A stretch of 64,000 nt of DNA from Sphingomonas sp. LM7 (GTDB taxonomy: Bacteria > Pseudomonadota > Alphaproteobacteria > Sphingomonadales > Sphingomonadaceae): NCBI RefSeq assembly GCF_002002925.1, contig NZ_CP019511.1:744001-808000 (forward strand), in the 5' to 3' direction. A program made the position numbers and the translations under genes. A model generated the notes under the pieces. The model was not told the origin of the DNA and searched no databases. It saw only the letters and a program-made list of their open reading frames with translations. Shown piece by piece: positions 57,280 through 63,583 of the stretch (positions are counted from its first letter, which is position 1; each line of letters starts with the position of its first letter).

Positions 57280-57315
57280 GACTCCATATTTCCACTATCA
57301 TGGAAATATGGAGTC
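57280..57315. promoter_or_regulatory. Perfect 15-bp inverted repeat, candidate ArsR operator of the ars operon
   Basis: GACTCCATATTTCCA (57280-57294) and its exact complement (57301-57315) are separated by CTATCA. The site is AT-rich within GC-rich DNA and begins 84 bases upstream of the arsC start, where the operon promoter should be. ArsR dimers bind such A/T-rich dyads. It also lies 79 bases from the AlpA stop. Confidence 0.7.
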
Positions 57316-57393
57316 TTGAAGCCTGCTCTTTGGCGTGGCTGCTTCGCGGTCGCGCTGGAGAAACTCCGACCGCGAGCCGCGAAGCTGGGACGG

Positions 57394-57606
57394 TCAGCGC
57401 GCGGCGTCGTCGGTGCTGTAGAACATCGGGTTCTTCAGCCATTCCGCGACGGCAGATTCTCGCCAACCGGCGCAGCGCATGCTGATTTTGATGTTCCTGG
57501 GGAAGGTGCCGTTGTCCATTTTCCGGTACAGCGTCGAGCGGCAAAGGCCGGTGCGCTCGAGTACGGTTTTGAGGCGGAGGATCCGTTCGGAGGTTTGAGA
57601 TTGCAT
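57394..57606 (-). CDS. AlpA-family helix-turn-helix regulator, copy 1
   Basis: The 70-aa protein (MQSQTSERILRLKTVLERTG...) carries the MerR-like AlpA helix-turn-helix LCRSTLYRKMDNGTFPRNIKI followed by RCAGWRESAVAEWL. AlpA proteins control excision or conjugation genes of prophages and integrative elements. ATG 57606 lies five bases after AAGGTG, as at the second copy. About two thirds of its residues match the other copy at 59581-59796. Confidence 0.9.
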   Translation of the reverse strand: MQSQTSERILRLKTVLERTGLCRSTLYRKMDNGTFPRNIKISMRCAGWRESAVAEWLKNPMFYSTDDAAR

Positions 57607-57778
57607 GCTATCACCTTGCATCCTGTGCTTCGGAGTGGGGGCTCCTAAGGCAAGGTTGAACAGGAATTTCCGGGGAGAAAAGAGCCTCTCTGGTGCACCT
57701 GGAGGAACCTCGGGCCATCGGCTGCAAAAAGAAGCGCTGGCGTAGAATAGCGTCGCAAGGCTGACTCTCGTGAGTTCG

Positions 57779-58033
57779 TGTCAGGGCGTCTCACGCTGCG
57801 CGTGACCGTGCTCTACGCCGCGAATCGCGGCCCCGAGTCGCCTTGCGTCTCGGCCCGTTCGGGTTGCGATCGCTGACGTTGGGCGGCCGGCCGGTTTCGC
57901 AGAGAGCAGCTCTGGCGCAGCTCCGTTGGAGCTGGGCAGAGCTGCGCGCGGCGTGGCTGCGGTCGCCCCCGGCACTCGATCTAGCCGGGGGGTGAGCGTC
58001 GCCACCCACTAGGCCCGCCGCGGCGTGCCGCAA
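57779..58033. repeat. Structured non-coding module, copy A (shared with 59957-60402)
   Basis: This copy starts GTGTCAGGGCGTCTCACG and ends GCCGCGGCGTGCCGCAA, both shared with copy B. Stems kept in both copies are TCACG/CGTGA, CCGAG/CTCGG and a 7-bp hairpin CAGCTCC-GTT-GGAGCTG (57918-57934), which is GAGCTTC-GGT-GAAGCTC in copy B. The two differing base pairs are compensatory. No coding frame explains the conservation. Copy A is shorter by about 190 bp and no ParB-like gene follows. The rest of 57622-58358 holds no gene I can support. Confidence 0.6.
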
Positions 58034-58358
58034 GCTGCGCTGCGCGCAACTCCTCCTTTCCGTTTCGTCCTGCGGGTCCCACGGTCCGGCACCCGCTCGC
58101 AAGGGTTTGATGGCGGCTCCCGAGCTCCCGAAGGATCTTTTGTGGAGATGCCAGTCGCCCGCCTGTGGCGGGGGGAATGGATGCCACCCGGCACTGAAGG
58201 TCTGCTTATCGGCACCTACCGCCGAAAGCGGAACGGCAGGAGACGCCCCAATAGCGGGCGTTTAGGTCCGCGCTCCCATCGCCCGAAAGCGGACGCCCGT
58301 TCGCAACGAGGGGAAACGCACCAGTTGCCGGCTTCAGGCTAGCTGCTATCCTCGATAG

Positions 58359-58772
58359 ATGATGCGGCTCCTTGCATTCCTGCTGCCTATCGGCGGCTGC
58401 AGCACAGTCTCCCCTTGTTCGTCGGAGATTATTCAAGTTTCTCGTGATCCCGGCAGCAGACTCTACGCCACGACGGAAGTTAGAGATTGCGGCGCGACGG
58501 CAGATGTCGCCACGATTGTGCGGGTCGGGCGCACCGGTGAGAAGCGCGCGACTATCATGGAAGTCTTTGTTGCAGACTCCAATCACCAAACGGCGACAAA
58601 GGGCTCAGGTGGAGGAATCTGGACCAGCGTTACGTGGGTGGCGCCGCGCCAACTATCCATTGCGCATGCGACAAGAGCCAGAGTCTTCAAGCAGCTTGCG
58701 ACAGCAAGCGATGCTGCAATATCATATCGGCGAAGCGACCCGTACGAGCCTCCGCACGTGCCTCTCCAATGA
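58359..58772 (+). CDS. Small lipoprotein-like protein, unknown function
   Basis: The 137-aa product begins MMRLLAFLLPIGGCSTVSP, a lipoprotein signal with lipobox IGGC. The body has a beta-rich pattern (LYATTEVRDCGATADVATIVRVG and IWTSVTWVAPRQLSI) like the small lipoproteins with a conserved DCGAT segment seen widely in proteobacteria, by recollection. No partner genes are obvious; it lies between the two AlpA modules. Confidence 0.65.
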   Translation: MMRLLAFLLPIGGCSTVSPCSSEIIQVSRDPGSRLYATTEVRDCGATADVATIVRVGRTGEKRATIMEVFVADSNHQTATKGSGGGIWTSVTWVAPRQLSIAHATRARVFKQLATASDAAISYRRSDPYEPPHVPLQ

Positions 58773-58820
58773 GCGGATGTTCGTTATCATCCATTCTCTG
58801 CCATGGCAGCTAACGCCCCA

Positions 58821-59050
58821 CTAGCGGACCTTGAGTATGTCCCCGTCGCGTTCGATCAAGCTCGCTTCGCCGTTGTAGCGGATATGGTTCAACGCCATCC
58901 GCCGACATTGCTTACGTTGTTGATCTGCCGCTCGACCCAACGACGCCACGCGGGATCTCCCACCGCAAGGCGCTCTGCACCGAGTATGCTCGTATCGTGC
59001 TCGACCCGAAGATCTTTGATGAGGAGTATCCATCGGTTGCGGTCTTCCAT
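58821..59050 (-). pseudogene. Small gene broken by a frameshift
   Basis: From ATG 59050 the minus strand encodes MEDRNRWILLIKDLRVEHDT and onward to ERQIN, coding-like through about codon 44, then runs into a stop at 58889. In another frame the sequence continues coding-like as CRRMALNHIRYNGEASLIER to a stop at 58821. A one-base loss at about 58910-58920 would join them into a protein of about 76 aa. I do not recognise the family. The two halves read as one protein, so this is a decayed gene or a sequencing error. Confidence 0.6.
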
Positions 59051-59193
59051 AAGGCTCAGGCTAGAACAGCGGGCGGCCGCTTTCCACCCAATCTAGGACA
59101 ATCGCGGGGGCGAAGCGGCCGCCCAAAGCTGCCGGACCGCTAACGCCCCGGCTACTGAGCGGTATGAACAGTCCGTCCATTGAGCATTTGTGG

Positions 59194-59476
59194 TCAAGCC
59201 TTTGGGTAGGCGTGGAGGGCGCTGACGCATTCCGCATAGCGTGTGCTGAGCAGCGGATGCGCGAGATAGGCGCGCGCCTCGTCGACCGATCGGATCGCAT
59301 AGCGCTGCGCGGTGGGGCTGGAGCCGAGGCCGGCGATTCCGGGGGAGATGTACCACGTCCAACGCGTTCGCTTAGCGCCGCAGCCTATTTCGCCCAGCGC
59401 CCGTTCGTAGCTGGTGTGCTCGGCTTGCACGAAGCGGTCCCAAGTCGAACGGGTCGGCCGCGTCGGCGCTGCCCAT
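59194..59476 (-). pseudogene. DUF1810-family gene, frameshifted and 3'-truncated
   Basis: From ATG 59476 the frame begins MGSADAADPFDLG. The typical continuation D-RFVQAEHTSYERAL is found in the next frame, so one extra G in the TTGGGACC stretch breaks the gene. The second frame then reads GAKRTRWTWYISPGIAGLGS and AQRYAIRSVDEARAYLAHPLL, characteristic of DUF1810, but ends about 60 residues early at HAYPKA. Both the frameshift and the lost C-terminus mark it as a remnant. DUF1810 has no established function. Confidence 0.7.
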
Positions 59477-59580
59477 TACATCGACATGCCCACGATCGGC
59501 CGCCATAGCCAAGCACGCTCGGACGTCATCAACATTTGGGTGTCGGTCCAAGACGGCCTGTCCCAGAACGCCGCCGCGGG

Positions 59581-59796
59581 TCACCGTCCGGAACGCTCGT
59601 CCGCCCTGTAGAACATCGGATTGTTCACCCAGTCCTGTATGGCTGACTCGCGCCAGCCGGCGCAGCGCGTGCTGATCTTAAGCTGGCTGGGAAAGCTACC
59701 CTGCTGGATCTTGCGGTACAGGGTCGCCCGGCTGAGACCCGTGCGGTCGAGCACGGCCTTGATCCGGAGTATGCGGTCAGTTGTCTCGGTCTGCAT
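59581..59796 (-). CDS. AlpA-family helix-turn-helix regulator, copy 2
   Basis: The 71-aa protein (MQTETTDRILRIKAVLDRTG...) has the helix-turn-helix LSRATLYRKIQQGSFPSQLKI and RCAGWRESAIQDWVNNPMFY. It is a paralogue of copy 1. ATG 59796 is used because AAGGTG is six bases before it, matching copy 1. Divergent from the ParB-like gene across a 740-bp region holding copy B of the structured module, so it may control that promoter. Confidence 0.9.
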   Translation of the reverse strand: MQTETTDRILRIKAVLDRTGLSRATLYRKIQQGSFPSQLKISTRCAGWRESAIQDWVNNPMFYRADERSGR

Positions 59797-59956
59797 TGCC
59801 ATCACCTTGCATCTGGTGCGTCGCCGGGATGCGGCCTTGGCAAGAGTGAGATGGAATCGACTGCGACGGAACGGCCCTGAAGCGCCAGGATTGTCGTTCT
59901 TTGGCCATCTATGACTATCGGACGCGGATGGTCGGGCCGGCGGATCAAGCTATCTA

Positions 59957-60402
59957 GTGTCAGGGCGTCTCACGTTCGCGACGTGACCGCGCTCTACGCC
60001 GCTGACGCGCCGCCGAGTCGCTCTGCGGCGTCTCGGTCCGTTCGGATCACGATCGGCTGACGCGTGTGCCGGCGGTGCCGGCGAGTGGAACGCAGGGATT
60101 AGCTGAGCGCGCACTGGGGCTTCTTGCGAAGCCGCCAGGGGTCGCGGCGCTTTTGGTTTCCGCGTGGCGCACTCGATCCGGCCGGAAGGCGCGGCGGTGG
60201 CTGGCCCACAGGCCCGCGCGCACGCCGCCACGACGGCCGGCCGGCTTCGAGAGCGCTGCTTTGTGGGAGCTTCGGTGAAGCTCGGGCAGCGCTGCGCGCT
60301 GAAACGCTGCGGACGCCGCGCAGGCGCGGCGGCGTTGGCCTCCGGCACTCGATCTGGCGGGGTGGGCGTCGCTACCCTCTAGTCCCGCCGCGGCGTGCCG
60401 CA
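59957..60402. repeat. Structured non-coding module, copy B, leading to the ParB-like gene
   Basis: Same start and end motifs as copy A. Conserved hairpins are TCACGT-TCGCG-ACGTGA (59970-59986), CCGAG/CTCGG (60013-60036) and GAGCTTC-GGT-GAAGCTC (60267-60283). The shared tail (60342-60402) is followed by 138 bp to the ParB-like ATG. Reading frames across it are only artefacts of high GC content. It could be a leader RNA, a replication or partition site (ParB binds inverted repeats), or a promoter array. The remainder of 59806-60540 shows no gene. Confidence 0.6.
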
Positions 60403-60540
60403 ACCTGGGCTTCGCCCAAGTCCTTCTCTGCGTTGCGGCCCTGCGGGTGCAGCCCGCCTCTGTCGGCGGGACTGCCGGTGCGCTCCTGCCGCCCACCCCG
60501 CCATTCCGGCGCCGGTTGCGGTAGTTTGAGGAGAAGGACA

Positions 60541-62286
60541 ATGGAACTCAGGCATATCGCACTCGCCGATCTCTCCGTCTCGGCTGCCAACATGCGGGCG
60601 AGGGGGAGCAAGCCGGACATCGCCAACATCCTGCCATCGGTGCGGGCACGCGGCGTGCTGGTGCCGCTGATCGTGCGTCATGCGCAGGAAGAGGGGGAGT
60701 TCGAGATCGTGGCGGGCAAGCGGCGCTACCATGCGGCGCTGGTGGTTGCCGAGGAGAGCGGGGAAGGGGAGGCCTTGCCGTGCGCGGTGATCGCGGCGGG
60801 AGACGATGCAGCGGCACTCGAAGCCTCGTTGATCGAGAACATTGCGCGGCTCGACCCGGATGAGGTGACCCGCTGGGAGAGCTTTACCCGGCTGGTGCGC
60901 GAGGGCCGCTCGCCCGAGGATATCGCGCTCACGTTCGGGCTGACCGAGCTGCAGGTGAAGCGGACGCTGGCGTTGGGCAATTTGCTGCCGCGCATCCGGG
61001 GGCTCTACCGCAAGGGCGACATCGACGTCGCGACGGTGCGGCATCTCACCCTTGCGCCTAGGGCGCGGCAGCGCGACTGGCTGGCGTTGCTCGACGACCC
61101 CGACGCCTATTGCCCCACCGGGCATCAGCTCAAGGCGTGGCTGTTCGGCGGCGCGTCGATACCGCTCGGCGCGGCGCTGTTCGACATCGCCGACTATGCG
61201 GGCGAGATCGTCTCGGACCTGTTCGGGGATGAGCGCTTCTTTGCCGATGCCGCCTCCTTCTGGACCGCGCAGACCGCCGCCATCGAGGCCAGGGCGGAGA
61301 ACTATCGCGAGGCGGGGTGGCGCGAGGTCGTCGTGCTCCCGACCGGCGAGGCGTTCCACGGCTGGGAGCATGAGCGCTGCCCCAAGCGCAAGGGCGGCAA
61401 GGTGTTCCTCGTGGTCGGCGCGCGCGGCGATGTCACGGTCCATGAGGGCTATGTGTCGTGCAAGGAGGCGCGCAAGCGCGAGAAGGGCGAGGCGTCCGGG
61501 ACGGGCGAGAAGCCGGTGCGCCCGGAGGTCAACGCGCCGATCCAGAATTATATCGATCTTCACCGGCATGCCGCGGTGCGCGCGGACCTTGTCGGCCAGC
61601 CTTCGGTCGCGCTGCGGCTGATGGTGGCGCATGCCCTCGTCGGATCATCGCTCTGGAGTGTCCGTATCGAGGAGCAGCGCGCGCACGGCGACGCGATTGC
61701 CGAGAGCGTCGCGGGCTGCGCATCCGAAGCGGTATTTGACGAGAAGCGCCGCGCGGTGCTGGCGCTGCTCGGCTTCGATCCCGAGACCCCGACCGTGCGC
61801 GGTGGCTATGATGGCGAGCATGGGCTTGCCGGGCTCTTCGTGCGGCTGCTCCAGCTTCCCGATCCTGCGGTGTTCGATGTGGCGGCGGTGGTGATGGGCG
61901 AGACGCTCGAATCTGGCAGCGCGCTCATTGAAGTTCTTGGGCCATTGCTTGGCACCGACATGGCCAAGGTCTGGAGGGCCGACGACGCCTTGCTCGATCT
62001 CATCCGTGATCGCGCGGTGCTTGGCCACGTCCTCGCCGAGGTGGCGGGGGAGGCAGTGGCCAACGCCAACGAGGACGCGACCGGCAAGGTTAAGCGCACC
62101 ATCGTCCGCGATTGCCTCAACGGCACCAATGGCCGCGCCAAGGTCGAGGGCTGGGTACCCCGCTGGATGGCGTATCCGCCTTCCACGTACACCCAGCGCG
62201 GCGGGGTGGGGTCCGTTGCGCGCGCTGCGACGGTGGCGGGCCTTGCCGCCGCTCCCGAGCCGCTGCCGCTGCGCCGCGCGGCGTAA
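60541..62286 (+). CDS. ParB/RepB/Spo0J-like protein with long C-terminal extension
   Basis: The 581-aa protein has the ParB N-terminal fold (LADLSVSAANMRA, LVPLIVRHAQE, IVAGKRRYHAA, LIENIARLDPDE) and a KorB-type helix-turn-helix (RSPEDIALTFGLTELQVKRTLALGNLLPRI), but over 300 further residues of unknown function. ParB proteins bind centromere-like sites; such large versions occur in plasmids and integrative elements without a neighbouring ParA, as here. ATG 60541 follows GAGGAGAAGG. First gene of a plus-strand group with the next small gene. Confidence 0.88.
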   Translation: MELRHIALADLSVSAANMRARGSKPDIANILPSVRARGVLVPLIVRHAQEEGEFEIVAGKRRYHAALVVAEESGEGEALPCAVIAAGDDAAALEASLIENIARLDPDEVTRWESFTRLVREGRSPEDIALTFGLTELQVKRTLALGNLLPRIRGLYRKGDIDVATVRHLTLAPRARQRDWLALLDDPDAYCPTGHQLKAWLFGGASIPLGAALFDIADYAGEIVSDLFGDERFFADAASFWTAQTAAIEARAENYREAGWREVVVLPTGEAFHGWEHERCPKRKGGKVFLVVGARGDVTVHEGYVSCKEARKREKGEASGTGEKPVRPEVNAPIQNYIDLHRHAAVRADLVGQPSVALRLMVAHALVGSSLWSVRIEEQRAHGDAIAESVAGCASEAVFDEKRRAVLALLGFDPETPTVRGGYDGEHGLAGLFVRLLQLPDPAVFDVAAVVMGETLESGSALIEVLGPLLGTDMAKVWRADDALLDLIRDRAVLGHVLAEVAGEAVANANEDATGKVKRTIVRDCLNGTNGRAKVEGWVPRWMAYPPSTYTQRGGVGSVARAATVAGLAAAPEPLPLRRAA

Positions 62287-62340: not shown

Positions 62341-62580
62341 ATGTCCGAACCCACCGATCCCCCCCGTGCCCGGCATATCCGGCGTGCGATCCGCAAGCTG
62401 CCTCGCGCCGAGCGCGAGATATTTCTCGCACTGCGCTCCGACGATGCGCTGACCTATGCCGAGCTTGGCGTGCGGCTCGGGGTCAGCGCCGCGATGGTCG
62501 AGCGCCTGTTCGCACGAGCGCTCGGCAACTTCATGTCCAACCTCGACCGTCGGCCCCGGCGCTGGTGGCGCTTCTGGTAG
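62341..62580 (+). CDS. Small sigma-factor region-4-like helix-turn-helix protein
   Basis: The 79-aa product (MSEPTDPPRARHIRRAIRKL...) consists almost only of a sigma70 region 4-like fold: LPRAEREIFLALRSDDALTYAELGVRLGVSAAMVERLFARAL, followed by a Trp/Arg-rich tail RRPRRWWRFW. Without region 2 it cannot be a complete sigma factor; it may be an anti-activator, a coactivator or a DNA-binding accessory of the element. Confidence 0.8.
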   Translation: MSEPTDPPRARHIRRAIRKLPRAEREIFLALRSDDALTYAELGVRLGVSAAMVERLFARALGNFMSNLDRRPRRWWRFW

Positions 62581-62624: not shown

Positions 62625-62653
62625 GTCGATTGGCTCGGATAGGATCGCCGCAC

Positions 62654-63583
62654 ATGCGTACCGACCTCGATCATCTGCCCGAACAGCAACAGCGCGAACT
62701 TGCGCGTGCCTGCGAGGTACTGCTCGAGGAATTCCACAAGGCAATTTCGCGCGCGACCCAGCCGCACAGGCGCAATGGCAAGGTCTACAAGATCATCTTG
62801 TTTGGATCGTATGCGCGGGATGATTGGGTCGATGAGCCCGAGAACGGCTATCAGTCCGACTTCGATCTGCTGATCGTCGTCAGCCATGGCGACCTGACGG
62901 ACATTGCCGATTATTGGTATGTCGCCGAGGACCGGATCGCGCGCGATCCGCTGATCGACCGGCCCGTGAACATCATCGTGCATTCGCTTGATGAGGTGAA
63001 TCAGGCGCTCACGCGCGGGGAGTATTTCTGGACCGACATCGCGCGCGATGGTGTCGCGCTTTACGAATTGCCCTGTCATGCTCTCGCTGCTCCCAAGCCT
63101 CTTACCGCAACCGATGCATATCGAATGGCGAAAGAATATTATGATCAGTGGTCACACTCGCTGGATGTTTGGATCGAGCGTGCCCAAATCGCTGCGACCA
63201 AATCAGAAGATCCGGAGTGGCGAAAGGCAGCCGCATTCGATCTCCACCAGTCAGCTGAGCGTGCGTACATCTGTTTCCTACTCGTCGAGACGCTCTACTT
63301 TCCGCGTTCGCACAACATCAAATTCTTGCGGTCGCTTTCCGAGGACAAAGACGATCGTCTTGTTGCTGCTTGGCCTCGTGAAACCAAGCAGGATCGTGCC
63401 CGGTTTGAGCGGCTGAAGCGCGCCTACGTCGAGGCGCGTTATTCCGCGAGCTACGCTATCACGGGTGATGACTTGAAGGCGTTGGTTGAGCCCATCCTGT
63501 CGCTGCGTGAGATCGTCTCGCGCCTCTGTGAAGAGCGGTTGCGGGATTTGATGCAGAGAGTCGTCGATGCCAGCCCGTCTTAG
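62654..63583 (+). CDS. Fused nucleotidyltransferase (MNT) - HEPN protein
   Basis: The 310-aa protein has a minimal nucleotidyltransferase domain: ILFGSYARDDW (GS at 51-52) and SDFDLLIVV (D69, D71), then a strand with NIIVHSLDEV. A helical HEPN-like domain follows (SAERAYICFLLVETLYFPRSHNIKFLRSL, about residues 208-236). In HEPN/MNT toxin-antitoxin systems these are usually separate genes, the nucleotidyltransferase inactivating the HEPN RNase by adding AMP; here they are one polypeptide. The typical R-x4-6-H active site of HEPN RNases is only partly visible (R-S-H). Function as toxin, antitoxin or resistance enzyme is inferred. Confidence 0.85.
   Translation: MRTDLDHLPEQQQRELARACEVLLEEFHKAISRATQPHRRNGKVYKIILFGSYARDDWVDEPENGYQSDFDLLIVVSHGDLTDIADYWYVAEDRIARDPLIDRPVNIIVHSLDEVNQALTRGEYFWTDIARDGVALYELPCHALAAPKPLTATDAYRMAKEYYDQWSHSLDVWIERAQIAATKSEDPEWRKAAAFDLHQSAERAYICFLLVETLYFPRSHNIKFLRSLSEDKDDRLVAAWPRETKQDRARFERLKRAYVEARYSASYAITGDDLKALVEPILSLREIVSRLCEERLRDLMQRVVDASPS

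Follow-up and report, generated by a model that had tools for sequence, protein, structure and literature searches.

In a window of 64,000 nucleotides from Sphingomonas sp. LM7 (the whole stretch of DNA analysed; contig NZ_CP019511.1, positions 744,001 to 808,000), we identified a core element at positions 60342-60515 that we read, with a probability of about 0.58, as a leading-region single-stranded DNA element acting like Frpo; it would serve the ParB or ArdC gene behind it as a promoter or as a priming site. The element, which defines covariance model R1, is a rod-like multi-branched hairpin of 174 bases assigned to the minus strand, the predicted transferred strand. The family precedes genes that mobile elements probably deliver first into a new cell, and the evidence suggests that the element helps to switch on these genes during arrival.

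The earlier note on this DNA had proposed a duplicated non-coding module, and its duplication was borne out when copy B was searched against the window, since both copies were recovered. Repeat analysis placed copy B from 59957 up to the ParB gene and copy A from 57778 to approximately 58116; the two matched at 83% over 107 bases (57778-57878) and at 73% over 219 bases (57884-58077). The presence of a divergent AlpA-like regulator beside each copy (Phage_AlpA, Pfam PF05930; 57394-57621 for copy A and 59581-59805 for copy B, both on the minus strand) was likewise found as described, and so was the restriction of the ParB gene to copy B (ParB_N, 60541-62286). In the hairpin that had been singled out, CAGCTCC-GTT-GGAGCTG at 57918-57934 and GAGCTTC-GGT-GAAGCTC at 60267-60283, we confirmed the two compensated pairs; the supposedly fixed three-base loop keeps its length, but its letters differ (GTT and GGT). 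The copy B hairpin falls outside the core, in an upstream stretch of the module (59957-60341, no strand assigned) that is conserved less widely; this stretch begins with GTGTCAGGGCGTCTCACG and occurs in a subset of relatives. All 25 of the related sequences that could be anchored (of 28) carried a hairpin of at least five pairs within that 62-base stretch, a count made without a shuffle control and to be read with care, as such hairpins come easily in GC-rich DNA and the best hairpin of several rows lies at a different position. Wobble pairs were not depleted in the predicted fold of this upstream part. The module is real, but its proposed limits need revision: the best-conserved part is 60342-60515, and only 61 of these 174 bases lie within the interval claimed. 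Copy A (57778-58116, no strand assigned) is a truncated relic in which the core part (57970-58116) has lost its 3' arm, and it scores 52 bits compared to 164 for copy B; no gene follows it, and neither of its strands is favoured, in contrast to copy B. A piece of a DUF1810 gene lies between the copies at 59194-59430.

The core ends 25 bases 5' of the ParB start codon, and the probable ribosome-binding site of that gene, GAGGAG, lies at 60528-60533 on the plus strand. An alignment of the window with 13 ParB relatives (the relatives came from 55 places in named genomes) revealed two layers of conservation in the 750 bases 5' of the ParB start. The better-conserved layer comprises the last ~190 bases before ParB, and the layer starting with GTGTCAGGGCGTCTCACG is present in a subset, while in others an AlpA gene starts there. 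Conservation as coding sequence was rejected: the upstream reading frame that continues into ParB is broken in relatives by length differences, both insertions and deletions, ahead of a conserved ATGGAACTC. A MAFFT alignment of 26 sequences, three of them taken from 5' of plasmid ArdC genes, yielded a branched rod of 41 pairs, 20 of which showed a two-sided change in one or more sequences. This alignment served to build R1. When 100 matches (98 distinct) were aligned to R1, 96.2% of cells were paired over the 41 pairs; the 98 distinct sequences held 395 two-sided cells compared to 93 ± 7 in shuffled and at most 88 in slid controls, and 30 of the 41 pairs showed two-sided change. The R1 alignment is fitted to the structure, and therefore the result from the unfitted 26-sequence alignment matters as well. 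These results bear out the proposed selection on structure. A search of the whole window against Rfam release 15 matched tRNA only; at E values up to 10, the region 57300-60700 gave three weak chance-level matches, of which one covered the minus strand of the core (E 9.6). The int-alpA RNA motif was rejected as a candidate, as Rfam gave no such match.

R1 recognizes four places in its own genome: copy B (164 bits), a copy before an ArdC gene (104 bits), copy A (52 bits) and a remnant (48 bits). At the further copy before ArdC (G000:C1:2494444-2497915), the ParB relative that follows has an internal stop. Among 61 relatives, some close and some more remote, 14 had matches. The large genome searches, which were run with stricter filters, gave matches in 137 of the 295 genomes searched within the genus, with up to 8 places per genome, and in 9 of 385 sampled across the class (own genome included). 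With three DNA queries, 11, 15 and 17 plasmid records contained the element, mostly from sphingomonads and once from Mesorhizobium, and phage records gave no DNA match to the element. The covariance-model search in other sphingomonads returned many homologues with covarying stems, which the earlier note had named as support for its proposal, but not the fixed AlpA-ParB context named along with them.

To describe this context, we scored 101 R1 matches and kept the 91 with at least 60 bits, which dropped 10 weaker ones including copy A. ParB or ArdC was found within 3 kb of the element at 86 of the 91, on the same strand in 86/86; the nearest neighbour was ParB in 44, ArdC in 39 and a second kind of ParB in 3, and five of the 91 had none. 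ArdC identity was confirmed by Pfam (ArdcN and MPTase-PolyVal). The match to ParB or ArdC starts after the core in 83 loci and before the end of the core in three (by ~22 bases in two, and ~3 kb before in one); it starts within 150 bases in 75 loci. About half of the matches (46/91) had been found via ParB relatives or by similarity of DNA, which means that their neighbours were in part preselected; among the 44 matches from model-only genome scans, ParB or ArdC was present beside 39. No AlpA gene lay within 1.5 kb of the core in 52 of 88 loci; where present, AlpA was divergent (39/39 loci). In the window, the ParB_N protein (581 aa, 60541-62286, plus strand, Pfam PF02195), the gene that the element would control, is followed on the same strand by a 79-aa protein with a sigma-70 region 4 fold (62341-62580), which in many relatives likewise comes after ParB or ArdC, and by a nucleotidyltransferase-HEPN protein (62651-63583, start codon not certain). 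The sigma-region-4 protein was downstream on the same strand in 23/24 loci, and the nucleotidyltransferase-HEPN protein in 48 of the 49 loci having both. The position beside parB would suit a centromere-like site or an operator, to which ParB or some other protein would bind in double-stranded or cruciform DNA. However, the 39 of 86 loci in which ArdC takes the place of ParB, with no ParB directly after the element, and the variation of arm sequence while pairing is kept, both argue against it.

The two strands of the core were compared by folding energy against dinucleotide shuffles. With DNA energies the minus strand had the better fold in 45 of the 48 representatives, and with RNA energies in 43 of 48, while the same shuffle-controlled test favoured the minus strand in only 1/15 RNase P RNAs and 4/15 tmRNAs. 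Structured RNAs commonly contain G.U pairs and rarely A.C pairs. In the element, G.U and A.C each made up 1.4% of cells, compared to 9.1% and 0.3% in RNase P RNA of the same genus and 14.6% and 0.5% in tmRNA (30 sequences of each control, folded by a route identical to that of the element); the share of G-C pairs was similar in RNase P and the element. The cell counts depend partly on the structure chosen: the model structure, which leans to the plus strand, gave 31 G.U and 55 A.C cells, the minus-strand DNA structure gave 11 and 67 (92 representatives), and in the plus-strand RNA structure G.U and A.C were equal. When covarying pairs were chosen symmetrically for both strands, the counts no longer told the strands apart (G.U/A.C 8.6/4.4% in RNase P, 5.8/10.3% in tmRNA and 1.7/2.2% in the element); the folding-energy comparison, an independent test, does distinguish them. 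Together, the folding energies and pair counts bear on the earlier idea of a leader RNA, here a structured 5' leader of the ParB and ArdC mRNAs that would control translation or transcription. The fixed short distance between the end of the element and the ribosome-binding site, and the long-range paired helices with branches of variable length, do look like structured RNA; but wobble pairs are nearly absent, with G.U no more frequent than A.C, the better fold lies on the minus strand and Rfam gave no match, and we therefore consider this reading rather unlikely. A leader RNA of AlpA, which the core precedes on the minus strand, was rejected: AlpA is often missing, and the minus preference persists without it (48/52 loci) as with it (33/36). 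The rarity of wobble pairs in either orientation is what a cruciform would give, but a cruciform would show no strand preference, and the double-stranded binding site is, of the explanations weighed here, one that we hold to be very improbable. The fold of the element rather looks to have been selected on the transferred DNA strand. Two stretches upstream of the ssb gene of the F plasmid also lean to the minus strand; PMC9849209 places Frpo2 upstream of F ssb.

The relation of the element to transfer was explored through relaxase genes. A MobA/MobL-helicase relaxase adjoins the window at L192:3121-6027, on the same strand as ParB, and corresponds to Ti-type TraA according to the annotations of plasmids that share its upstream sequence. 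Among the 91 loci, TraA (20/20) and RlxS, a different relaxase taken from an annotated plasmid (12/12), were always downstream of the core on the same strand, and neither was present in the stretches examined elsewhere. The sequence GAGGGCGCGCTTATACGTCGTGCC lies 56 bases 5' of TraA in 18/18 aligned loci, and its reverse complement contains TAAGCGCGCCCT, which matches the nic site of RSF1010 at 11 of 12 letters; that site is given in PMC4814116 as TAAGTGCG/CCCT, the piece after the slash staying bound to the relaxase. Since TAAGCGCGCCCT is in the reverse complement, the candidate nic would be on the minus strand with its leading end toward ParB/ArdC, and the strand led by that 5' end would run into ParB/ArdC and be their template. 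This putative nic position before TraA, deduced by comparison of motifs, applies to TraA-type elements only. A nic-like site was found downstream of the core in the expected orientation in 22 of 101 matches and in 12 of 20 newly fetched regions, and it was reversed in none. These counts include some places twice, under two names: one pair within the 22, and at least two of the 12. No such site was found in the stretches examined of the other 79 matches and 8 later regions, and no nic was located in RlxS elements. Plasmid pHSL3 is an exception, as its map shows a fragment of the relaxase upstream of the element and not downstream; there, the element sits in an ArdC piece next to an integrase trio.

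Because the element lies upstream of the genes predicted to enter first and its fold is on the entering strand, which would be their template, we read it as a single-stranded promoter or priming site. In the proposed sequence of events, a nick would be made at oriT, which lies a little beyond the end of the window at ~6.5 kb downstream of the core, and the minus strand would enter the recipient; the core would then fold into a long branched hairpin, and the folded strand would serve as a promoter, or as a priming site that also gives a promoter, as Frpo of the F plasmid does; ParB (here) or ArdC (elsewhere) would thus be transcribed before or during second-strand synthesis. PMC9849209 and PMC11541004 describe Frpo as adopting its fold in the incoming strand and driving the transcription of leading genes up to the completion of the second strand, and PMC7213743 describes ArdC of R388 as required in the recipient and not in the donor. 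This role of ArdC, together with the presence of a ParB-like gene in the leading region of F, is the basis for reading the element as serving both ParB and ArdC, and for these genes it would presumably act in the recipient. The weak point of this reading is that a relaxed pattern found sigma-70 boxes in 0 of 91 matches, and no -35/-10 boxes lie near the element; therefore, we infer the promoter step, the start of RNA synthesis at the element. The absence of boxes might reflect either another type of box, a sigma-like partner, second-strand priming or a barrier like EGeRS1, and it is conceivable that the sigma-region-4 protein encoded a short way downstream helps to read the element.

Like Frpo/ssi of F and ColIb-P9, the element lies upstream of leading-region genes (on F, one operon of these genes holds ssb, a ParB-like gene and psiB), is predicted to form a hairpin in the entering strand, and precedes genes that run toward oriT with the tra genes beyond; the entering strand would also be the template of the leading genes, in this case by way of the putative nic of TraA-type elements. 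The ParB protein of the window shares 29% identity over 148 aa with the ParB-like protein of the F leading region. However, Frpo2 is said in PMC9849209 to carry sigma-70 boxes, while our element has no -35/-10 boxes, bears a branched head on a stem and is alphaproteobacterial, and transcription of the single strand is in its case a prediction. A comparison with the F leading region yielded no sequence match to the element (best model score 12 bits, E 5.9). We regard it as possible, though doubtful, that the family forms a class of single-stranded promoter or priming sites unrelated to Frpo, lacking sigma-70 boxes and used by two lineages (TraA and RlxS) for a ParB and ArdC establishment regulon in Alphaproteobacteria.

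EGeRS1 of the pLS20 family, likened here by its published description, is a second point of comparison; it shares with our element the richness in inverted repeats and the place in front of ardC and other establishment operons. PMC8708921 describes it as conserved, rich in inverted repeats or hairpins, present in several copies per element and located directly 5' of the ribosome-binding sites of ardC and other establishment genes, with no strong promoter and an ability to block read-through; it is 400-600 bases long compared to ~170 here. By analogy, the element could be a read-through barrier that silences the genes in the donor, their expression being set otherwise, and the absence of promoter boxes fits this. 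However, such a barrier leaves unexplained both the minus-strand preference and the inferred template role of the transferred strand, which in pLS20 is the non-template strand according to the same paper, and we judge it improbable. The single-stranded promoter or priming site agrees with the earlier suggestion of a control element of a mobile-element family.

A literature search of titles and the beginnings of abstracts, covering sources other than subscription journals and preprints, found the element described nowhere among the matches listed. Structured regulatory elements of establishment genes are known as a kind; this family and its strand evidence appear to be new. How antirestriction genes are expressed before the double-stranded state is largely open for conjugative elements outside enterobacteria, the literature that we found covering F, ColIb and Bacillus plasmids. 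Because this family has a strand signature, its sequence and the predictions for its fold and strand are all directly testable, and the combined comparison of wobble pairs and of fold strength on two strands may help to separate structured single-stranded DNA from structured RNA elsewhere.

Several further features were observed at these loci. Beside the relaxase, a 2070-aa open frame (L192:9232-15444) has domain matches to the PIN-TPR-GreABC group of predicted conflict proteins. A number of loci (L041, L043, L045-L049, L052-L054 and others) have a ParB that starts with ATGAAACTC and no core in the ~260 bases before its start; another repeated pattern, CCGGTCCGCC ... GGCGGACCGG, precedes the start there, possibly a second hairpin type, and in most of them the core lies in front of an ArdC gene further upstream. 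On several plasmids (L082, L083, L084, L198 and L199), a trio of integrase-type genes is found inside or beside the ArdC gene that follows the element, with ArdC in pieces. Finally, a perfect 15-base inverted repeat with a 6-base spacer, possibly an operator, is located at 57280-57315 near an arsenate reductase gene.
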